NCBI GenBank assembly: GCA_029263455.1
Contig: JAJCXM010000032.1
Coordinates: forward strand, 124,001-188,000
Reading direction: 5' to 3'
DNA: 64,000 nt
Source of the DNA: Holophagae bacterium
GTDB taxonomy: Bacteria; Acidobacteriota; Holophagae; Acanthopleuribacterales; Acanthopleuribacteraceae
The translations under genes and the position numbers were made by a program. Below the pieces are notes generated by a model. That model saw only the letters and a list, made by a program, of their open reading frames with translations. It had not been told where the DNA came from and did no database searches. Shown here in pieces: positions 1,432 to 15,962 of the stretch; positions within the stretch are counted from its first letter, which is position 1, and each line of letters starts with the position of its first letter.

Positions 1432-4400
1432 TTGAAGAAAAGGTGGGTCATACTCGCCGCGATTGTTCTTACGATAGTCATCCTGCCGCATACGCCAATC
1501 GTGGAGCGATCTTTATTGAATCGGACGATCAAGGCTTTGCGCGAGTTGGGCATAGACCTTGAGGCAAAAGAGCTCCAGCTGAATCTGTTCAGGTTATCTG
1601 TACGCTTGACGTCGGTACAAATTTCGGGTCAAGGGTGGGCGGCCGATTGCGGCCACGTGTCAATCAATTTAGGGCGTGGAGTATTGACTGGACGCATTGA
1701 TGTTGACGAAATTGTCCTACGAAGCGGACAACTCAGATTGGATGACGCCTTATTTGAAGCGAACAATAAAGAGTCCACTAGTCTCCAGATTCCCAACATA
1801 CGATTAGGCCGCTTGCAGGTTGACGATTTCTCTTTCGGTGCCCAAGGCAAAGTAGTCGAAACGTCCGTAACGGCCGATGATCTGTCTATCCTTCGAGATA
1901 ATGCCCATCTAATTTTTCGGGCTGCAGCAGACAAAGTTAAGCTAGCCAATTTGGAACTCGCAGAAGTATCCATTGCACTTGATTTGGATACGGACGATTT
2001 CTCCAATTTCACAAACATCCAACTCACAACTCAAACAGCTCAATCTCAAATATCTATCGCTGGTGATGCCGACCTTCGGGAGCGTGAATTCCAATTACGT
2101 ATTACGTCTTCTGTGGGCCCTGACCTCTTTGACTATCCCGAGCCGGTTAACTTCAACATGGTCGTCGAGAATGAGATGGGTCATTGGCGGGCGCTAAGTA
2201 AAGTTGTGGCCATGGACCAAACTTGGCCGCTTGAGGCACACGGAGAGGCCCAGCTATCGATGACGCCACAAACCGATGTTCAGTTTAGGCTTGGGGATAT
2301 CGCAGTGGGGGAAGGCTGGGTTGAGTGGGATGGGACATCTCTCAAAACAAGTTATCAGGTGGAAATCGATGCATTGAAACTGGAACCGCGTATTGAACAG
2401 GCGGGCATCTCGGATTTGTTATTGCACGGTACTTTTCAAATGAGCGATGACTGGGAATTAGTGGCAAAAGTGCAAGGCAATGGGCGAGCTAAGCTAAATG
2501 CATCCGCATTCATGACAAGCGCAGGTTCTAGGTTGGTAAATTTGAACTATGGCTACCAAGATGTGAGCGCGGTGGGTTGGTTTGATCAAAACAATGAAGG
2601 TTTTGTCGACATCCGATTGGGTTCTGACCTCTTTTTGCGTCCTTGGCTGGGAGACCAAGTTCAATTTGATCGAGCGGAGTTAGGTCTCGAGGCAAAATGG
2701 GCAGATGGTTCGGCCAAGATCCAGCGAAGCAGCGGCCTAATTCGTCATTTGGTCATTCAAAATGAGGACCTAGGTGATGTTAGGGTCAGGGCTGCAGGCG
2801 ATCTGAAGGCCTTAGCATTTGAGGCGTATACAGAGAATAAGCAAATTGATTTGGAAGGAGTGGTGGATCTGCTCCAGATGGAACTTACAGATGGTTGTCT
2901 TTCACTCTCTTCTTTTGTAGTAAATCAGTCTCCAATTCCAGCCGTTTTTGACGCGAACGTTCGTATTCGAGGACCATTCAATCAGCTTGAAGTTGGCGGT
3001 ATGCTGGCTGCTGAATTCAATGCAGGTGGATTAGAAGGTTATGCTGTAACTAGCTTGGAAATGTCTAAGCAAGTCTTGTATGGCAGGCACGTTGATATTC
3101 GTTACGGGCCTGTACGAGTCATTGGCCACGGTTCATTTGCGTCTCTGGACCAATGGTCGGCAGAAGGTGTCCTACATAGTCAACATGGTGACCTGATGTT
3201 GGATTCTGGGCCCATTGGCTTACCCATCGTTGATTTGGCATTCAGGGCTAATGCTAACGAAGTGTCGGCAGACGTGAATCTAATAGATCAACAAATAGCC
3301 GTAGGTGAACATGTCATCAATCTTGGTGGTGATGTGACTATTCCAATTAGGGTTGCCCTGAAGGAACCGTTGGCCTTGGACGTTAACCAACCCTTTGATG
3401 TAGCGGGAATATCTGTTTATGGCCTTCACGTTGAAATGACGGGAGATGAGACTCAAATAGAAGCGGACTTGATGTTAAACAGTTGGTCAAAGACCCTGGC
3501 GTCGTTAGCCATTGAAATCCCTTCAGAGTTAGACCTGTTCCAGTCTTCAATTAGCCTAAGCGTGTCTTTACCCGCAAATCGGGCACCTGAAATCTGTGTC
3601 AGTTACGGCGAATTGAATGGCGCATGGGATGGCCAACCCATCACGTTGTCCGACATAAATGCGTCATATCAAGATGATTTGAACGTTGAAACCTTGCGTG
3701 CCAATACGGCTGGCCTGAAACTGAACTGTTTTGCGGGCCCTGCGACTCGCGATTGGCCTAAACCTAGCCCTAGGTTTGGCAGCGACGAATTGGATTGTCA
3801 CTGCACGGTTGACCTAACAGACGAAATCGCACTTAATGAGACCTTGGCGTATTGGGAATTGCCTCTAAAAGCAAATAAATTAGCGGCTGAGATTGAGTTG
3901 GTCTCTGATCTTTCCTTTACGCGTCCGCGATTTGCACTCTGGCTAGATGAATTTAAGGGTTCGTACGAAGCGTCCTCTGTTACCGTCGATCAATTGGCCG
4001 TGGCTTATGACGGGCAATGGCATGCCAATGATGGCTTAATCCTATTTGATAAGTTACCTATTAGTTTGGCGGTCGAAGCCGATGGCTTACATGTGAGATC
4101 GGTTTTGGGTGTGACTCAACTTCAAGAGTTTGCACCGGAATTATTAGGTGATGCGCTCTTTTGGATTGATGTTCGTGTGCCGCCGCTGGACCAACAAGAC
4201 CATCTCCAAGCGGAGTTTCGTCAATTGGTAGGCTCCCTTTTTCATCCCGAACCCTGGATGGAAATCCAAGGTGCTTATTTACAACTTGAAAAAAAGGGAC
4301 CTGATTTCAGGCTCCAAGACTCGAAGGTAGAAGTTAACGGCGCACTAGTCGCATTATCTGGCGCGGGCTCTTTTCGCGATGATCAGTTGAATTGGCACGT

Positions 4401-7400
4401 ATCCGCTTACGGTGAATCGGTGCCGCTTACATATGGCGACTTTTTTGGTCTCACCGATTTGGCCATTATGGTTCAAAAACCGAATCAAGGGCGGGCGGTC
4501 CTTCGTGGTGAGGTGAGTACCCGTGATGGCTATTACACTCCAAGCCAGTCGCTAGAGAGTTTCATCCGCGACATGATTGAAGAGACACCGGCAATCTATT
4601 TTCCCGATCCTGTCTTGGACAGTGTCGACCTTCAATTGCTGGTAAAGACGGCGTCACCTTTGATCGTCGAACACGATCTCGGATTTGTGATTATGGAGAG
4701 TCCCGACCTGATGATTCTTGGGACATTGGCATCGCCTGATTTGACCTCCGGAACCATTTTCATCAATGAAGGTAGTGAAATAAATGTAGGACGCGAAACC
4801 TACGTTTTTCGAGAAAGCCAAATCCAATTTCATGCCAATCGTCCCGGTGAACCCTATTTACAAGTCTTTTTGGAGTACGGTGAGTTTGATGACCGTCAAC
4901 CCATTCAGCTATTGGGTTATATGTCTGACTTAGAAGGGGATACGTCTTCAGATGGTCTGACAGATTTGGTGGCGAGCTATTTGTTAGGTCATGTCACTTC
5001 TGCGGTCAGTCTTGAGAGTGAGCAAAACGAGCAGATATTTGACCGCTCATTCTCGATCGTTTTTACTCAGCCATTACACGATAAATTGATTAGCCGAGTT
5101 GCCGTGCCCATCGATGACCCCTCGCGACAACGAATCGAACTAGGCGTGGGTCCCTATTTCGAAAGTTATGCGTCAGCTGTTTACGAAGAAAACACGCTCA
5201 CCTACGATGTACGACGCCGGCAGAAACTAGGATTACCTGCCCATCAACCGCCACGAATTGAAAAGATTCAATGGTTAGCGGAAGTGACAAGGGAAATAAA
5301 ACGTAAACTTGGAATTCGAAAAGGCGACGTATTTTCGGAAACCTATTTGAGAAGGGCGCGCCTGCGTTTAAACCGTCACTTTATTAAACACGGATACCTC
5401 AACGCCAACGTCGATATCACATTTGATGACGGAATTATGGATGTGTCCGTGAAACCGGGGCCTAAAACGGAGATCATCATCGATGGTTTGGTGCTTGAAA
5501 AAAAACAGCTGCCGGAAATGTATCGAATCGTTAAGCAAAGTGGAGATGCGGCTTCTCGCAGGTTACAGCTATGGATGGAACAGACGGCGATCCGGACAGG
5601 CTTCAGATCGGCTCAAGTTGAAGTTATGCAAAGTGGTCACTTATGGCGGGTGAAAGTGACAACCGGTGAGCCGGTAGGACGAATTGATATTCAATTTGGC
5701 GATGCAAATAAACTACTGGCATCGCTTGTCGAAAAACAAGAACGCGCAAAAACATTCCTCGTTGAGTACCTAGTGGCGCCTTCACGATCTGAGGCGTTGT
5801 TGCGTGCGCGCCTGGCCGCGCAAGGCTATGTTCAACCTAAAATTGAAAGAGGACGATTTACAGGTCCCCTTAAATATGAAATTCCAATCAGCCTCGGGCC
5901 AAAAGCGCTTCTGAAAGAGATCATTCCTGGCGAGGGTTCTGAACCCTTGCCCAAAGGAATCACAGAACGCTGGAGCGGCCAGTCATTTAGTTACGACAAC
6001 CTGAAGTCACTGACCGAACAACTTGATTCAGCGCGGCGCCGTGATCAACGAGTCAGTGTTGCGCCCCGTCAAGTTGAAAGCGATGTCGTGATCGAGATCA
6101 AGATCAGTACTACCGCTGAATCGGTGTTCCGTGACCTGTCTATCGAAGGCGACGATCGCATTGACAAGAAAAAACTGTCACGTTTCTTTCGTCCCAAGAA
6201 TGGATTATTTACCCAATCTTCGTTGATTAAGTCGCAAGAGGAGCTGATCAAGACTGGCAGTTATCGGGCTGTGCGTATCATGAGCGAACAAGAATCGGCG
6301 CATATTGTGCTTGAAGAACGTAACCGCTGGGACTTTGAGTATGGCCTAGCCATCAACGAGTATGAAGAACCGACTTTGGTTGCCCAGTTTCGAGATAATA
6401 TGTTTGGAAGCCGCGTCAATACCTTTTCGGTCCGTGGCGAACGGGGACCAACTCAGCGTTCTGTGTCGGCACAGGCCCTCTTCCGACGTATCCTTAACAG
6501 CCCTTTCAATTTTTATTTATTGGGCGGTTGGGACCGCTCCACTCGGGACGACAATCCCGACGAATTTCAACCTCCGCTTCAAATTGAAATTCAGCGGCGT
6601 TTTGTTTTCCCAGAGTCCTACACGGCGAGTTCCGAAATTCGCTATCCCATCTCACAACGGAGCGAGCTAACTTTAGGCGCTGAGTACAAACGCATCATTC
6701 AACATGAACAGGTCATCTTCTTTTTCGAACCATTCGATTATGTGGAAGGTCAGCCGCTTGATGCAAATGACATTACTGAGATCGTTAACTCTACTTCTAA
6801 TATTGACCTTACACCCCTTAAGTTCTCATGGTCATACCGCGATCTGGATAACAAGAGTAATCCTCGTTCAGGCTTTTTGCTGCGCTTCGGATTGGAACAT
6901 TACATCCAGGTGTTGGGCAGCGAAAATGCAGTTAATGGTACGCGTGTTAATGGAGCATGGACGCTGTTTAAGAGCGGTCGTCGATGGTTATGGCAGCAGC
7001 GATATAAGCTTGGCTTTTATCGTCCAAAAAATTCGATCCCAGATGCCTTCAGTGATCAACGCGACCCGCTCCTGTTCTATTTAGGCGGTCCAACCACGTT
7101 GCGCGGTTACAGTCAGGACTCGTTGGGACCATTCTCTGGCGATGGTGAACGGATCGTAGGTGGTGAGGCTATGCTGTTTGCCAGCCACGAACTTGCCTAC
7201 GATATCGGTTGGCAGGACTTATCCATTAGCGGATTTGTGGATGCCGGTCGTGTTTGGAAAGACTACGATAATGTCGACTTCAGTAAGATTTCGGTTTCAA
7301 CAGGCGTTGGACTAGGTTGGGACAGTGCGATTGGTCATTTACAATTTGATTGGGCTTTTAGAGTACAAGAATATTTACCTGATGATTTGGTACTCAAAGC

Positions 7401-7440
7401 AACGAAGGACTGGCATTTTAGGTATGGCCGGACCTTTTAA
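1432..7440 (+). CDS. TamB-TamA (Omp85) fusion protein, outer-membrane/envelope assembly
   Basis: A single 2002-residue protein combines two normally separate partners. Residues 1-25 form an inner-membrane anchor. Residues ~40-1100 are repetitive beta-rich AsmA/TamB-like sequence. Residues ~1100-1190 match the conserved TamB C-terminal region (INVGRETYVFRESQIQF, then a DLVASYLLG stretch). From ~1275 there are POTRA-like domains, with another near 1560-1620. Residues ~1630-2002 look like an Omp85 beta-barrel, with the GGPTTLRGYS motif (RGY) near 1886 and a final phenylalanine typical of outer-membrane barrels. TamB bridges inner and outer membranes and TamA is its Omp85 partner, so the fusion is mechanistically sensible. 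The TTG start follows GGAGG at seven-base spacing and abuts the previous stop. No frameshift or stop is seen across 6 kb. Confidence 0.88.
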   Translation: MKKRWVILAAIVLTIVILPHTPIVERSLLNRTIKALRELGIDLEAKELQLNLFRLSVRLTSVQISGQGWAADCGHVSINLGRGVLTGRIDVDEIVLRSGQLRLDDALFEANNKESTSLQIPNIRLGRLQVDDFSFGAQGKVVETSVTADDLSILRDNAHLIFRAAADKVKLANLELAEVSIALDLDTDDFSNFTNIQLTTQTAQSQISIAGDADLREREFQLRITSSVGPDLFDYPEPVNFNMVVENEMGHWRALSKVVAMDQTWPLEAHGEAQLSMTPQTDVQFRLGDIAVGEGWVEWDGTSLKTSYQVEIDALKLEPRIEQAGISDLLLHGTFQMSDDWELVAKVQGNGRAKLNASAFMTSAGSRLVNLNYGYQDVSAVGWFDQNNEGFVDIRLGSDLFLRPWLGDQVQFDRAELGLEAKWADGSAKIQRSSGLIRHLVIQNEDLGDVRVRAAGDLKALAFEAYTENKQIDLEGVVDLLQMELTDGCLSLSSFVVNQSPIPAVFDANVRIRGPFNQLEVGGMLAAEFNAGGLEGYAVTSLEMSKQVLYGRHVDIRYGPVRVIGHGSFASLDQWSAEGVLHSQHGDLMLDSGPIGLPIVDLAFRANANEVSADVNLIDQQIAVGEHVINLGGDVTIPIRVALKEPLALDVNQPFDVAGISVYGLHVEMTGDETQIEADLMLNSWSKTLASLAIEIPSELDLFQSSISLSVSLPANRAPEICVSYGELNGAWDGQPITLSDINASYQDDLNVETLRANTAGLKLNCFAGPATRDWPKPSPRFGSDELDCHCTVDLTDEIALNETLAYWELPLKANKLAAEIELVSDLSFTRPRFALWLDEFKGSYEASSVTVDQLAVAYDGQWHANDGLILFDKLPISLAVEADGLHVRSVLGVTQLQEFAPELLGDALFWIDVRVPPLDQQDHLQAEFRQLVGSLFHPEPWMEIQGAYLQLEKKGPDFRLQDSKVEVNGALVALSGAGSFRDDQLNWHVSAYGESVPLTYGDFFGLTDLAIMVQKPNQGRAVLRGEVSTRDGYYTPSQSLESFIRDMIEETPAIYFPDPVLDSVDLQLLVKTASPLIVEHDLGFVIMESPDLMILGTLASPDLTSGTIFINEGSEINVGRETYVFRESQIQFHANRPGEPYLQVFLEYGEFDDRQPIQLLGYMSDLEGDTSSDGLTDLVASYLLGHVTSAVSLESEQNEQIFDRSFSIVFTQPLHDKLISRVAVPIDDPSRQRIELGVGPYFESYASAVYEENTLTYDVRRRQKLGLPAHQPPRIEKIQWLAEVTREIKRKLGIRKGDVFSETYLRRARLRLNRHFIKHGYLNANVDITFDDGIMDVSVKPGPKTEIIIDGLVLEKKQLPEMYRIVKQSGDAASRRLQLWMEQTAIRTGFRSAQVEVMQSGHLWRVKVTTGEPVGRIDIQFGDANKLLASLVEKQERAKTFLVEYLVAPSRSEALLRARLAAQGYVQPKIERGRFTGPLKYEIPISLGPKALLKEIIPGEGSEPLPKGITERWSGQSFSYDNLKSLTEQLDSARRRDQRVSVAPRQVESDVVIEIKISTTAESVFRDLSIEGDDRIDKKKLSRFFRPKNGLFTQSSLIKSQEELIKTGSYRAVRIMSEQESAHIVLEERNRWDFEYGLAINEYEEPTLVAQFRDNMFGSRVNTFSVRGERGPTQRSVSAQALFRRILNSPFNFYLLGGWDRSTRDDNPDEFQPPLQIEIQRRFVFPESYTASSEIRYPISQRSELTLGAEYKRIIQHEQVIFFFEPFDYVEGQPLDANDITEIVNSTSNIDLTPLKFSWSYRDLDNKSNPRSGFLLRFGLEHYIQVLGSENAVNGTRVNGAWTLFKSGRRWLWQQRYKLGFYRPKNSIPDAFSDQRDPLLFYLGGPTTLRGYSQDSLGPFSGDGERIVGGEAMLFASHELAYDIGWQDLSISGFVDAGRVWKDYDNVDFSKISVSTGVGLGWDSAIGHLQFDWAFRVQEYLPDDLVLKATKDWHFRYGRTF

Positions 7441-9592: not shown

Positions 9593-9613
9593 CTTGACAA
9601 TCCGCGACTCATA
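9593..9613 (+). promoter_or_regulatory. HAIR-like HspR operator at the dnaK promoter
   Basis: The HAIR consensus bound by HspR is CTTGAGT-N7-ACTCAAG. Here CTTGACA is followed by seven bases and ACTCATA, giving five matches in each half-site with exact spacing. The left half overlaps a perfect -35 hexamer, so a bound repressor would block polymerase. An HspR-like gene lies 3.2 kb downstream in the same cluster. The site is seen directly; regulation by HspR is inferred. Confidence 0.7.
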
Positions 9614-9622
9614 TTCTATTTT
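9594..9622 (+). promoter_or_regulatory. dnaK sigma-70-type promoter
   Basis: A consensus -35 hexamer TTGACA (9594-9599) is followed by a 17-base spacer and a -10 candidate TATTTT (9617-9622, four of six). The start codon of dnaK is 45 bases downstream of the -10. The HAIR-like operator overlaps the -35, consistent with repressor-controlled heat induction rather than an alternative-sigma promoter. Confidence 0.7.
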
Positions 9623-9666: not shown

Positions 9667-11568
9667 ATGGGAAAGATAATTGGAATTGACCTGGGGACAA
9701 CCAACTCGGTCGTCGCCGTCATGGAAGGCAAAGAGCCTGTCATTATTAATAACGCAGAAGGAACCCGCACCACACCGTCAGTGGTTGGCTTTGCCAAAAC
9801 GGGCGAACGCCTAGTGGGTCAAGTGGCCAAGCGGCAGGCAATCACCAACGCAGAAGACACCATCTACTCGGTGAAACGCTTTACGGGTAAGAAGTTTTCT
9901 GAGGTCACGGAAGAGACCAAACGCGTGCCATATAACGTAGTTTCTGGACCAAATGGCGATGTGCGCATTCAGACGCACGATGGTAAATCCTATTCGCCGC
10001 CGGAGATATCGGCCATGATTTTACAGAAACTGAAGCAAGCTGCTGAATCATATTTAGGTGAGACAGTTACCGAAGCTGTGATCACGGTGCCTGCCTATTT
10101 TAACGATGCAGAGCGCCAAGCAACAAAAGATGCTGGCAAAATTGCTGGCTTAGATGTCAAACGCATCATTAATGAACCTACGGCTGCCGCGCTAGCCTAC
10201 GGTTTAGACAAGAAGAGCGACGAAACCATTGCGGTTTTCGACTTTGGCGGCGGTACCTTTGATATTTCGATCTTAGAAGTTGGCGAAGGCGTCGTAGAAG
10301 TTAAATCAACGAATGGTGATGTTCATCTAGGTGGCGACAATATTGACGAAGCACTCATCACCTGGATTCTCGACGAATTCAAAAAGGACCAGGGAATTGA
10401 TCTGAGTGAAGACAAGATGGCGCTTCAGCGTTTGAAGGAGTCTGCTGAAAAGGCGAAGATCGAGCTTTCCAGCACTCAGTCTACTGAAATCAACCTGCCC
10501 TTCATTACCGCCGATGCTTCGGGCCCCAAGCATCTGAACCTAAGTCTAACGCGCTCGAAATTTGAGGCGCTAATTGATGACATCGTGACTCGTTTGGAAG
10601 CGCCTTGCAGAAATGCGCTGAAAGATGCAGGTCTGAAGCCCGAGGACATCCAGGAAGTTGTTCTGGTTGGCGGTTCGACCCGGATCCCCAAGGTACAGGA
10701 AAAAGTAAAATCTGTTTTTGGCAGAGACCCACATAAAGGCGTCAACCCAGATGAAGTGGTCGCCATTGGAGCTGCCATCCAGGGTGGCGTTTTGGCTGGT
10801 GACGTCAAAGATGTCTTACTCTTGGATGTGACGCCACTGAGTTTGGGTGTGGAAACGGAGGGTGGTATCGCCAATGCAATGATTGAGCGTAATACAACGA
10901 TTCCGACAAAGAAGAGCCAAACCTATTCCACGGCTGCCGATAATCAGAACCAAGTGGACATTGTGGTATTCCAAGGGGAACGCCCGATGGCCCGCGACAA
11001 TAAGATTTTGGGTACTTTCTCGTTGGTGGGTATTCCACCTGCGCCTCGAGGCGTCCCTCGTGTAGAAGTCACCTTTGATATTGACGCCAATGGCATTATC
11101 AATGTTTCCGCCAAAGATATGGGTACCGGTAAACAACAGAGTATCCAGATCACAGGTTCAAGTGGCTTAACCGAAGATGAAATTAGTCGCATGGTTCAAG
11201 ACGCAGAAGAGAATCGAGATCGCGATAAAGATCGCAAAGAGCAGGTTGAATCACACAACAAACTGGATTCACTTATTTGGCAAACTGAAAAGACGCTCAC
11301 GGAGCATCGCGACAAGCTTGAAGCCCAGGATGTTACCGACTTAGAGAAAGCGTTAGAAGAAGCCAAAGAGACGGTAAAGAGCGATGTGGTTGCTGACCTA
11401 AATGCAGGATACGAAAAGTTGATGCAGGCATCACATAAACTGGCTGAAGTGATCTATAAAGAGCAACAGGCGGGCGAAGCCGAACAGGCAGGCGCTGCCG
11501 CAGCTGGCGGACCAAGTAGCGGTCCCGATGAAGATGAAGGTGTTATTGACGCCGAAGTTGTTGAGTAA
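9667..11568 (+). CDS. dnaK: Chaperone DnaK (Hsp70)
   Basis: A 633-residue Hsp70 of normal length. The ATPase domain opens with [13 protein letters not shown] and carries the phosphate-2 loop FDFGGGTFD and [10 protein letters not shown]. It is followed by the substrate-binding domain ([14 protein letters not shown] near 390) and a helical lid, and ends in the acidic EVVE tail typical of bacterial DnaK. I chose the ATG at 9667 because AGGAGG lies just upstream; a longer in-frame TTG at 9622 falls on the -10 element and would add 15 unrelated residues. DnaK folds nascent and stress-damaged proteins with DnaJ and GrpE. The gene leads the dnaK-dnaJ-hspR-sigma cluster; grpE is absent from this locus. 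Confidence 0.98.
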
Positions 11569-11579
11569 ACCTTAAACTT

Positions 11580-11604
11580 GGGCGGAGGCAACTCCGCCCT
11601 TTTT
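11580..11604 (+). terminator. Intrinsic terminator/attenuator between dnaK and dnaJ
   Basis: GGGCGGAG and CTCCGCCC form an eight-pair GC-rich stem closed by a GCAA (GNRA) tetraloop, directly followed by five T residues. It sits in the 58-base gap between dnaK and dnaJ, so partial termination would lower dnaJ relative to dnaK. Confidence 0.85.
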
Positions 11605-11626: not shown

Positions 11627-12751
11627 ATGGCAGAAGATTTTTATAAGGTCCTTGGCGTTAAGAGAAGTTCAAGCGCGGCTGAAATCAAGAAGGCCTATCG
11701 TCGCCTAGCGCGCCAGTTTCACCCAGATGTCAATCCTGGAGATCGAGATGCCGAAGCGCGATTCAAGGGCATTTCTGAGGCTTATGAAGTCCTTAGTGAT
11801 GAAGAGAAGCGTAAGAACTATGACACTTATGGAACCGCTAATCCGCAAGTAGGCGGGCCCGGTGGCGCCGATTTTGGCGGTTTCGATTTTCGTGGCTTCG
11901 ACTTCAATTCGGCTGGCGGGTTCAGTGATGTTCAAGATCTTTTCCCTGACCTTTTTGGGGGTCGACAGCGCAAGGCAAGCCGCTCAAACGCGCCGCAAAA
12001 GGGCCAGGACGTCCAGCACTCAGTTCGGCTAGCGTTCCGAGAAGCGGTTTACGGGACAACTCTGAATTTGAGCTTGGATCGCAAAAATACGTGTTTGAGT
12101 TGTCAAGGGTCTGGTCGAGTCGCGACAAAAGGCCGCCAAAGTTGTCCGCGTTGTGATGGCAAAGGGAAACAGCGCATTCAGCAGGGAAGTATGGTGTTTG
12201 AAGCGCCTTGTAGTATGTGCGAAGGACGCGGAGTCTTGGAAAGTGAACCCTGTTCGCCATGCGGAGGTCAAGGGTTATTGTCGTCTACAGATCGCGTGGC
12301 AGTAAAGATTCCGGCTGGAGTAGACAACGGCACACGAGTCAGAGTCCCACAAAAAGGCGAAGGTGGACGGTTAGGGGGCCCTGCTGGCGACCTCTTTATC
12401 ATCACGTCCGTTGAAGCCCATCCCTTTTTTGAGCGCAAGGGTGCCAATCTGTATTGTGAAATTCCAATAACATTTACTGAAGCTGCCTTAGGCGCGAAAG
12501 TTGAAGTACCGACCCTTGAAGGTAAAGCGACCATCAAGATTCCGCCAGGAACTCAAGTGGGGCAGAAATTCAGAATACGCGGAAAAGGTGTTCCTTCTGT
12601 GCGCGGTCATCAGGTAGGAGATCAATTTGTTCAGGTAAAGGTGGTTATTCCTCGCCTGCGAGATGAGCGATCTAAAGAAATACTGCGAGAATTTACGGCG
12701 CTGAACGATGAAGACCCGCGAGCAGACCTTCCAAGCTTTCCCGTGTCTTAA
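11627..12751 (+). CDS. dnaJ: Chaperone DnaJ (Hsp40)
   Basis: A full type I J-protein of 374 residues. It has an N-terminal J domain with the HPD motif (QFHPDVNPG near 30), a Gly/Phe-rich linker (~75-110), and a zinc-binding region with four CxxCxG repeats ([32 protein letters not shown]; ~145-210). The two C-terminal substrate-binding beta domains follow. It stimulates the DnaK ATPase and delivers substrates. GAAGG lies five bases before the ATG. The gene follows a strong hairpin-T-run after dnaK, so its level is probably set by read-through. Confidence 0.97.
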
Positions 12752-12812
12752 GGTTGAAACACAGATACGTCCAATCTATGCTTAGGAAACAGCAAAGGAA
12801 TGCCGATAGTTT

Positions 12813-13211
12813 ATGAGAGGTCGAAAACGCTCCCCAGGTTATTACGCGATTAGTGTCGTGGCCAAGACTTATGGAATACATCCACAAACCTTGCGTCTCT
12901 ACGAGCGGGAGGGTTTGTTAAGGCCTACGAGAACGGAGGGCAATACCCGCCTTTATTCTGAAGAAGATATTAAACGTCTGGAAGCGATTCTAAATTTGAC
13001 CCGCGACTTAGGCGTCAATCTTGCTGGTGTTGATATTGTACTGAAAATGCGTGAGCAAATGGAAAAGATGCAGGCCGACGTAAACGAACTCCTTACCGCT
13101 TTCCGCCAGATCATGGTGGACCGAATGGAAGATGGAGAATCGGCCTATAAACACTCTTTGGTGCGTGTTGCTCCGACCTCATTTGTCATCCGTCTTGAAG
13201 ACGAAGGGTAA
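12813..13211 (+). CDS. hspR: MerR-family heat-shock repressor, HspR-like
   Basis: A 132-residue MerR-type regulator. The winged helix-turn-helix (YAISVVAKTYGIHPQTLRLY, then EREGLLRPTR and a LYSEEDIKRL wing) spans about residues 14-65. The NLAGVDIVL segment after it is typical of HspR rather than metal or drug sensors, and there are no conserved cysteines. A coiled-coil helix follows. HspR represses chaperone genes at HAIR sites using DnaK as co-repressor. The position downstream of dnaK-dnaJ and the HAIR-like site at the dnaK promoter both support the call. The Shine-Dalgarno sequence is weak (AAAGGA, distant). No HAIR site is seen directly before hspR, so it is probably transcribed from the dnaK promoter. 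Confidence 0.88.
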   Translation: MRGRKRSPGYYAISVVAKTYGIHPQTLRLYEREGLLRPTRTEGNTRLYSEEDIKRLEAILNLTRDLGVNLAGVDIVLKMREQMEKMQADVNELLTAFRQIMVDRMEDGESAYKHSLVRVAPTSFVIRLEDEG

Positions 13212-13212
13212 A

Positions 13213-14064
13213 ATGGCTAGCTTCAAAGACTCTGGTCTATCTTCCGAGAACTTGAATTGGTATCTCCAGGAAATAGCAAAAATAAAGCCGCTCACAGCTG
13301 ATGACGAAAAGGAATTAGGCCGCGCTATCCAAGAAGGCGATAAGCAGGCATTGAACAGGATGGTTGAAGCCAATCTTAGATTTGTTGTTTCGTTTTCTAA
13401 ACGCTACAGAGGTTTGGGTTTATCTTTTCTTGACCTGCTTAATGAAGGCAATATTGGGCTTATTGAAGCCGCAAAACGATTTGACCCAGGTAAGAATGTT
13501 AAGTTCATCACCTATGCCGTTTGGTGGATAAGGCAAGCCATTATTCATGCTTTAGCAGAGCAGAGTGGAGCTTTTAGATTACCTCAGAAACAAGCTAATC
13601 TCGCTTATCGACTCTCGAAAAAGACAAGTAAATTGACCCAAGAATTAGAACGCGAACCTTCGATAAAAGAACTTGCTGATGAGCTTTCCATTACGGAAGA
13701 GGAAGTGCGTCAACTGCTTCAGGTCATGGGCGATAATATTTCGTTGTCGGGTGTTTCTGACGAGGAAAATGAATTTTCGCTGGCCGATAAGATTGAGCAA
13801 CAGAACGAAGCATCAGCGGATGAGCATCTTTTACAAGAAGCATTCGAACATCAAGTAGCTGAATTATTGAATGAACTTGATGAAAAAGAGGCTTTAGTGG
13901 TCAGATTACGCTTTGGACTGATCGGAAACGATCCCAAGACGCTGAAAGAGATTGGTGAAATACTTAGTTTATCGCGTGAGCGAATTCGCCAGATCGAAAA
14001 CATCGCGCTACAAAAACTACGCCGCAATCGCGCGATCCAAGAGCTTCGTGGCTATCTAACCTAG
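13213..14064 (+). CDS. RpoD/SigA-family sigma factor, short form
   Basis: A 283-residue sigma-70 protein without region 1.1. Region 1.2 (NLNWYLQEIAKIKPLT) is followed by region 2 (ANLRFVVSFSKRY; the -10-binding helix FITYAVWWIRQAI near 95), region 3 (SIKELADELSITEEEV) and region 4 (LKEIGEILSLSRERIRQIE). This length and layout resemble the short primary or group 2 sigmas of some phyla. The ATG at 13213 begins one base after the hspR stop, with GAAGGG inside the hspR end, so translation is likely coupled. An upstream in-frame start (13132) would overlap hspR and adds no family sequence. Whether it is the housekeeping sigma or a stress sigma cannot be decided; its heat-shock linkage favours a stress role. 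Confidence 0.9.
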   Translation: MASFKDSGLSSENLNWYLQEIAKIKPLTADDEKELGRAIQEGDKQALNRMVEANLRFVVSFSKRYRGLGLSFLDLLNEGNIGLIEAAKRFDPGKNVKFITYAVWWIRQAIIHALAEQSGAFRLPQKQANLAYRLSKKTSKLTQELEREPSIKELADELSITEEEVRQLLQVMGDNISLSGVSDEENEFSLADKIEQQNEASADEHLLQEAFEHQVAELLNELDEKEALVVRLRFGLIGNDPKTLKEIGEILSLSRERIRQIENIALQKLRRNRAIQELRGYLT

Positions 14065-14249: not shown

Positions 14250-15962
14250 ATGGATGCCGTGCAAAATTTCATTCAGGCCATAAGCACATTTGTTGAGAGC
14301 TATATTGTTCCGCCGCAACTGTTGATCTATACCTTGTTGGGGACAGGTCTGTTTTTGACTCTGCGTTTGATGTTCGTGCAATTGCGTTACTTTAAACATG
14401 GCGTTCAAGTAACCACCGGTCGATATGATGATCCGAATGAACCCGGTGATGTCACACACTTCCAGGCGTTGACCACAGCATTATCGGCCACCGTAGGTGT
14501 CGGCAATATTGCCGGGGTTGCGATTGCCGTTCACTGGGGTGGACCTGGTGCATTATTTTGGATGTGGGTTACTGCCTTTTTGGGCATGGCAGTTAAGTAT
14601 TCAGAAGTGACTCTAGCCCTGAAATACCGAGTCGTAGAAGACACTAAAGGCGAGGCGTGGAGAGGCTCCGTCTCGGGTGGACCGATGTATTACATCGAGC
14701 GTGGCTTAGGCAAGAAATGGAAACCGTTAGCGATCTTTTTTGCCTTCGGTCTTATGTTGACATCGTTCTTAACCGGAAACGCGATTCAAGCTAATACTGT
14801 CAGCGATTTACTTCACAGCGAGTTCTCGATGCCACGGGCACTCACGGGCGTTTTGACCTCGGCATTTGTGGCCGTAATCATTTTTGGCGGTATAAAACGT
14901 ATCGGTAAAGTGACATCGATCCTAGCCCCCGTAATGGCTTTGCTATACATCGGTGGCGCGCTGATTATAATTGTCATCAATTACGATCATGTGTTGCCCG
15001 CTTTTGCCTCGATTTTTTCTGAGGCTTTTAATCCGAAAGGCGGGGTAGCTGGCGTTGGAGCCGGTGCGTTCATGATGACCGCGTTATGGGGTGTAAAACG
15101 AGGCTTATTCTCAAACGAAGCCGGACAAGGATCTGCGCCCATCGCTCACTCAGCTGCCCAAACAGATGAGCCCGTGTCTGAAGGCGTGGTAGCTTTGTTG
15201 GAACCCTTTATCGATACCTTGGTCATCTGCACGATGACTGGCCTTGTTCTAATTACAAGTGGCGTTTGGAACCAAACTCATCCCTCAACGATGGCGTTGG
15301 ATTCTGGCGACGCGAGCTACCGATCTTTTGATGTGGACGGTTCAATCGTCGATGCAGCCTCACCGTCGAGTATTAAGGTGATCAATGGCGTGCCGGTTTA
15401 CGATGCGAGTAGTAGCCGCTTCTCATGGCACGAAGTTCCTGTAGAAAAGCTCTTCGTTGACGATGCACAAACATCTGTATTTTCTGGCACGATTGACGTA
15501 GCCACGGCCATTGCGACCTCAGATGACGGCACAAAGTATTCAATTCTCTATGGTGATGCCATTGAAAATTCCGCTCCCTTGACCACGATTGCCTTTGAAA
15601 AACATTTGGGCCGTTGGGGCGCGATGATTGTGATCTTGTGTGTGGCTTTGTTTGCTGTATCTACGGCGATTTCCTGGAGTTACTATGGTGACCGTTGTGC
15701 TAACTATATTTTTGGGTACAAGGCGATTGTGCCGTTTAAGGCCGTCTTCATCGCTTTCCACTTCATTGGGGCTATCCTGTCGCTTAATGTGATTTGGAAT
15801 TTTGGGGACGTTGCCTTGAGCCTGGTTACGTTGCCTAACCTGCTTGCTCTTTTGTTGCTTTCAGGGACAGTGGCCAAGTTAACCAAGTCCTATTTCGAAC
15901 GCAAACCTTGGCTTGAAAATGAGCGGGTGCATCAAGAGTTGAAGGCAAAAGGCAAGCTTTAG
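14250..15962 (+). CDS. Sodium:alanine/glycine symporter (AGCS family) with an extra loop
   Basis: A 570-residue multi-spanning membrane protein of the AGCS family, which imports alanine or glycine with sodium. Family landmarks are ALSATVGVGNIAGVA near 80, GPGALFWMW, SGGPMYYIERGLG, KRGLFSNEAGQGSAPIAHSA near 290, and ISWSYYGDRC near 472. GGGGAGGA lies eight bases before the ATG at 14250; the longer frame would begin inside the -35 element. Residues about 340-440, between SGVW and the SAPLTTIAFEK segment, form a ~95-residue hydrophilic insertion where relatives usually have around ten residues. The insert is rich in Asp, Ser and Val and looks like a small beta domain. Its function is unknown. 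Confidence 0.93.
   Translation: MDAVQNFIQAISTFVESYIVPPQLLIYTLLGTGLFLTLRLMFVQLRYFKHGVQVTTGRYDDPNEPGDVTHFQALTTALSATVGVGNIAGVAIAVHWGGPGALFWMWVTAFLGMAVKYSEVTLALKYRVVEDTKGEAWRGSVSGGPMYYIERGLGKKWKPLAIFFAFGLMLTSFLTGNAIQANTVSDLLHSEFSMPRALTGVLTSAFVAVIIFGGIKRIGKVTSILAPVMALLYIGGALIIIVINYDHVLPAFASIFSEAFNPKGGVAGVGAGAFMMTALWGVKRGLFSNEAGQGSAPIAHSAAQTDEPVSEGVVALLEPFIDTLVICTMTGLVLITSGVWNQTHPSTMALDSGDASYRSFDVDGSIVDAASPSSIKVINGVPVYDASSSRFSWHEVPVEKLFVDDAQTSVFSGTIDVATAIATSDDGTKYSILYGDAIENSAPLTTIAFEKHLGRWGAMIVILCVALFAVSTAISWSYYGDRCANYIFGYKAIVPFKAVFIAFHFIGAILSLNVIWNFGDVALSLVTLPNLLALLLLSGTVAKLTKSYFERKPWLENERVHQELKAKGKL

Follow-up and report, generated by a model that had tools for sequence, protein, structure and literature searches.

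The gene directly behind hspR in this Holophagae genome probably encodes a dedicated heat-shock sigma factor, one that is kept in the dnaK cluster across the phylum and is coupled to the repressor HspR. The gene lies in what we call the window, the whole 64,000-nucleotide stretch of DNA that was analysed (G000:C32:124001-188000, from a genome of 6.25 Mb), where dnaK, dnaJ, hspR and the sigma gene follow one another in that order on the + strand. The dnaK gene occupies 9667-11568 (TIGR02350, 967 bits against a cut-off of 822) and dnaJ 11627-12751 (TIGR02349, 401 bits against 377). The hspR gene at 12813-13211 encodes a 132-aa heat-shock repressor of the MerR family, which scores 109.8 bits with the NCBIfam HspR model NF047375 (cut-off 105), and the sigma gene at 13213-14064 encodes a 283-aa RpoD-related protein that lacks region 1.1, as judged from profile matches, a family alignment and a tree. 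A single base, 13212, separates the hspR stop from the sigma start, and the Shine-Dalgarno sequence of the sigma gene, AAGGG, is found in the final codons of hspR (13204-13208, + strand). A preliminary description of this DNA had placed hspR and the sigma gene correctly, and it was also right about the one-base gap, the Shine-Dalgarno sequence inside hspR and the position downstream of dnaK and dnaJ, both of which lie upstream on the same strand. Its remark that grpE is absent from the locus holds as well. Loss of grpE from the genome was considered and rejected, because the gene heads a second chaperone operon, grpE-dnaK2-dnaJ2, on another contig (G000:C8; L171 2409-6098), and upstream of that operon we saw no clear HAIR or CIRCE.

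The sigma factor matches regions 1.2 (13252-13344), 2 (13360-13563), 3 (13606-13827) and 4 (13864-14022), all on the + strand and all above the Pfam cut-offs. RpoD models give it its best scores, yet these fall far under every curated RpoD, RpoS and RpoH cut-off: TIGR02393 for RpoD gives 227.6 against 354, with the protein beginning at region 1.2; TIGR02394 for RpoS gives 223.8 against 378.7; and the RpoH (sigma-32) models TIGR02392 and PRK06596 give 172.5 against 323.1 and 164.4 against 241. Region 2.4 of the window-type sigma factor differs from that of RpoD. At about 285 aa, without region 1.1 and at 43-47% identity, the short RpoD/SigA-type sigma factors of Bacteroidota and allied phyla resemble it, but they group with RpoD and RpoS in a different clade. 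In a quick tree, whose internal order is weak and in which several rows have long branches, the phylum's sigma factors are separate from a supported clade (96) of RpoD, RpoS and the short Bacteroidota-type proteins, and E. coli RpoS clusters with RpoD away from the window-type sequences. The preliminary description had proposed counting the rpoD-family genes elsewhere in the genome to tell a housekeeping from a stress sigma factor. That count gives 37 region-2 matches, only three of which also carry region 3, namely a full-length RpoD (open frame of 586 aa, G000:C5), the window sigma factor and a more distant protein that is probably FliA-like. Because the full-length RpoD is encoded separately, we conclude that the window protein is an alternative sigma factor, and we rejected the reading of it as the primary one.

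The pairing with hspR is conserved. In a class sample of 61 genomes, made up of the window's own and 60 others of its class, hspR and the sigma gene are adjacent and on one strand in all 56 that hold both. Two of the 61 (G042 and G052) have neither gene, and three small genomes of genus g12 (G031, G045 and G057) have hspR only. Outside the class, we fetched 28 loci from other families of the phylum, which is very probably Acidobacteriota, and in these hspR is again followed by the sigma gene, mostly with dnaK and dnaJ upstream; five loci that we inspected carry hsp20 between dnaK and dnaJ. In most loci outside the class the two frames overlap or are separated by only a few bases, and in f2, a family of the window's class, the gap between them is 44-171 bases. 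Among the matches listed from other phyla, two Candidatus Aminicenantes loci have the same four genes (dnaK, dnaJ, hspR and sigma), and none of the 78 other loci, mainly from Bacteroidota, has a sigma gene beside dnaK or hspR. The adjacency of hspR and the sigma gene is well beyond chance.

The dnaK promoter region (9593-9622, + strand) contains a predicted RpoD-type promoter, TTGACA-N17-TATTTT, with its -35 element TTGACA at 9594-9599 and its -10 element TATTTT at 9617-9622, separated by a spacer of 17. A HAIR-like operator, CTTGACA-N7-ACTCATA (9593-9613, + strand), overlaps the -35 element and the spacer. This predicted operator agrees with the published HAIR consensus, CTTGAGT-N7-ACTCAAG (PMC6102357), at 10 of 14 positions, which 12 of 100 shuffles also reach, so that alone this match is not significant. 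Elsewhere in the phylum, dnaK likewise has an RpoD-type promoter overlapped by a HAIR-type motif, which matches as many as 12 of 14 positions, as in CTTGACAAAAGGTAACTCAAGTATTATATT, and because the motif recurs there, HspR likely controls the dnaK promoter in the window. A strict family pattern, STTGACN8ACTCAY, has 16 sites in seven genomes; five of these are upstream of dnaK in family genomes, in one case on a different contig from hspR, and a further one is upstream of hsp20 in G004. A search of the window with the exact HAIR consensus gave one match with three mismatches, below the chance expectation, and upstream of dnaJ and of hspR in the window's genome there is no convincing HspR operator. 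We also tried a genome-wide HAIR search with CTTGAN11TCAAG and one mismatch, which matched 341 sites where the reversed pattern matched 177, and it was discarded as too loose to use. In many genomes of family f2 (L174-L189, L099-L105), the dnaJ start codon is closely preceded, by a few bases, by a palindrome, CTTAGT-N7-ACTAAG, which resembles an HspR site and would be a variant operator, perhaps on a leaderless mRNA.

The 58-nt gap between dnaK and dnaJ has a folding energy of -20.5 kcal/mol (z -2.2) and contains an intrinsic terminator, GGGCGGAGGCAACTCCGCCC-TTTTT, at 11580-11604 on the + strand, with an 8-bp stem that has seven G-C pairs and is followed by TTTTT. Since the terminator sits there, the sigma-bearing unit in this genome is dnaJ-hspR-sigma, which would be fed by read-through or by a promoter of its own. 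Of 56 dnaK>dnaJ gaps, 12 contain a terminator, and these 12 all come from families f1 and f2 of the window's class. The 62 dnaJ>hspR gaps and the 63 hspR>sigma gaps contain none, and in other families the dnaK cluster is tight and uninterrupted. A possible second promoter for hspR and the sigma gene, TTGAAA-N17-TATGCT, lies at 12754-12782 on the + strand and is weak. In the dnaJ-hspR gap of six family genomes its TATGnT part is conserved and its -35 is not, and promoter-like sites in this gap are no more numerous than in shuffles. In family f2, the sigma gene is preceded by a conserved promoter element of its own, TGnTATGCT. The suggestion made earlier that all of the genes are read from the HspR-controlled promoter is therefore unsupported in that form for this genome, on account of the terminator, the lack of a convincing operator before dnaJ or hspR, and the conserved -10-like TATGCT. 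If the -10-like sequence in the family's dnaJ-hspR gap and the f2 element are taken at face value, hspR and the sigma gene might be mere neighbours that have separate promoters and whose order has no regulatory meaning. We regard this as highly improbable, because it leaves unexplained the adjacency across the phylum, often with overlapping frames, and the complete absence of terminators from the hspR>sigma gaps.

Evidence that the sigma factor probably belongs to the heat-shock response also comes from relatives that lack hspR. In eight such loci, the sigma gene lies 0.1-0.8 kb downstream of dnaK and is 54-64% identical, with an hsp20-like frame between the two genes in seven of the eight. 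The dnaK promoter of these loci has neither the right arm of HAIR nor TATAAT, and CTTGAC-N15-TCTTA stands in their place, 42-62 bases from the dnaK start codon and with identical spacing in all eight, one of which reads TCCTA. When ten hspR-less genomes were scanned, CTTGAC-N15-TCTTA matched 29 sites and the reversed pattern 4, and the gene next downstream of the motif is a heat-shock gene in 24 of the 29 (HSP70 in 9, HSP20 in 6, Cpn10 in 3, and Lon, DnaJ and ClpB (Clp_N) in 2 each). A 25th site, ahead of a tRNA and a tilS-like gene, may be an RpoD promoter. Thus, where HspR is missing, one non-RpoD promoter type is common to these heat-shock genes. In L201 and L203, groES of hspR-less genomes has both this promoter and a CIRCE-like element, and therefore sigma-type and HrcA-type control would meet there at one promoter.

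The sigma factor's own cluster is likewise headed by a CTTGAC-N15-TCTTA promoter in the hspR-less loci, so that the predicted promoter pattern in these relatives is that of a self-activating heat-shock sigma factor. Several hspR-less genomes also encode a second RpoD-like paralogue, of about 40% identity, which could read the TCTTA-type promoters instead, and we count this against the explanation that we favour. If that paralogue, or an ECF sigma factor, were the one responsible, the sigma factor next to dnaK would merely share the locus; we think this quite unlikely, as a motif-bearing dnaK promoter at the head of the sigma factor's own cluster is what is expected of an autoregulated sigma factor. 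It is probably the sigma factor beside dnaK, and not the paralogue, that reads these promoters.

The promoter type is not carried over to the window's genome. Over 38 genomes that have both hspR and the sigma gene (the window's included) or lack the sigma gene, CTTGAC-N15-TCTTA is not enriched over the reversed control, and for this reason we do not claim it for the window's genome; the DNA-contact residues of the sigma factor are nearly the same despite the lack of enrichment in the genomes with both genes. The groES promoters of hspR-containing genomes were rejected as sigma targets, since most are RpoD promoters with CIRCE, and groESL in the window's genome likewise has an RpoD promoter and a CIRCE element, which is control of the HrcA type. 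The groESL promoter and the unenriched motif both count against the favoured explanation, as does the terminator after dnaK, which weakens co-transcription with dnaK. They would suit a general, mostly constitutive second sigma factor with an RpoS- or SigB-like role that lies beside hspR for historical reasons, with repressors and RpoD governing heat shock here: the dnaK and groESL promoters of this genome are of the RpoD type, with HAIR and CIRCE, a terminator stands ahead of dnaJ-hspR-sigma, the f2 sigma gene has an element of its own, and genomes with hspR show no TCTTA-type regulon. Such a role seems to us rather unlikely, because throughout the phylum the sigma gene has stayed linked to dnaK, including in clusters from which hspR and dnaJ are gone, and because the promoter class of the hspR-less genomes is confined to heat shock.

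A dedicated heat-shock sigma factor coupled to HspR could operate as follows. HspR would repress the RpoD-type dnaK promoter through the overlapping HAIR operator, and in a relative the hsp20 promoter too. DnaK is the established sensor for HspR of the Streptomyces type, and here unfolded protein would titrate DnaK, whereupon HspR would release the operator. Derepression of the cluster would then raise the level of the sigma factor, its gene being directly behind and coupled to hspR, and the sigma factor would redirect RNA polymerase to further stress promoters. In the window's genome, both the rise on heat and the targets are part of the model. The preliminary description had put forward a feed-forward design of this kind, in which release of the repressor also raises a sigma factor. 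In its favor are the tight and conserved hspR-sigma unit, the finding that the sigma factor is not the primary one, the HspR-type operator over the RpoD -35/-10 at dnaK, and, in the hspR-less relatives, the shared non-RpoD promoter of the heat-shock genes, as expected of a heat-shock sigma factor. The loop is only partly supported in this genome, because a strong terminator parts dnaK from dnaJ-hspR-sigma and because no sigma targets were identified here. The broader proposal, that a repressor and a previously undescribed heat-shock sigma factor are encoded together across the phylum, and that loss of HspR moved the heat-shock genes to self-activating control from CTTGAC-N15-TCTTA, has in our judgment about an even chance of being right.

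Descriptions of heat-shock control usually present it as resting either on repressors (HspR, HrcA) or on a sigma factor (RpoH). The -10 element of RpoH promoters is of the CCCAT type. The system of the hspR-less relatives is like that of proteobacterial RpoH in its targets (dnaK, groES, lon, clpB and hsp20) and in a -35 that begins CTTGA, but it has TCTTA as its -10, and the sigma factor here scores under the RpoH cut-offs and higher with RpoD models and is encoded within the dnaK cluster. In Streptomyces and Helicobacter, HspR controls the dnaK operon via an inverted repeat over the promoter (PMC2687793, PMC6102357). A similar inverted repeat, resembling CTTGAGT-N7-ACTCAAG, overlaps the dnaK promoter here, but hspR is followed by a sigma gene, grpE is elsewhere, and in the window's class a strong terminator follows dnaK.

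Sig1 of Deinococcus radiodurans is a sigma factor of a different type. In that organism, as is proposed for this one, heat shock is under a repressor, HspR, as well as a positive regulator, a sigma factor, and the available part of the published account describes HspR and Sig1 as separate regulators of heat shock and mentions no shared operon for them, unlike the pair described here (PMC6888292). In the open-licence literature we found no description of an hspR-sigma system in Acidobacteriota, although an older account is possible, and none of the CTTGAC-N15-TCTTA promoter type in that literature on the subject. The components of the pairing are known and their arrangement is new, and the sigma factor stays below each of the curated family cut-offs given above. 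It joins the repressor- and sigma-based modes of heat-shock control in one gene pair across a large phylum that has been little studied, and the relatives, when compared, suggest a route from the first mode to the second. This yields one particular sigma factor together with the promoter predicted for it and a list of targets, all open to direct testing.

Two further genes on the + strand flank this cluster in the window. Upstream, 1432-7440 is a 2002-aa frame with POTRA and Omp85 domains at its C-terminal end and a long N-terminal part that has no Pfam match and is TamB-like in appearance, so that it is perhaps a TamB-TamA fusion. Downstream, 14253-15962 encodes an AgcS-type sodium:alanine symporter, whose match of ~520 aa is clearly longer than the 424-position model and suggests an insertion of roughly 100 aa.
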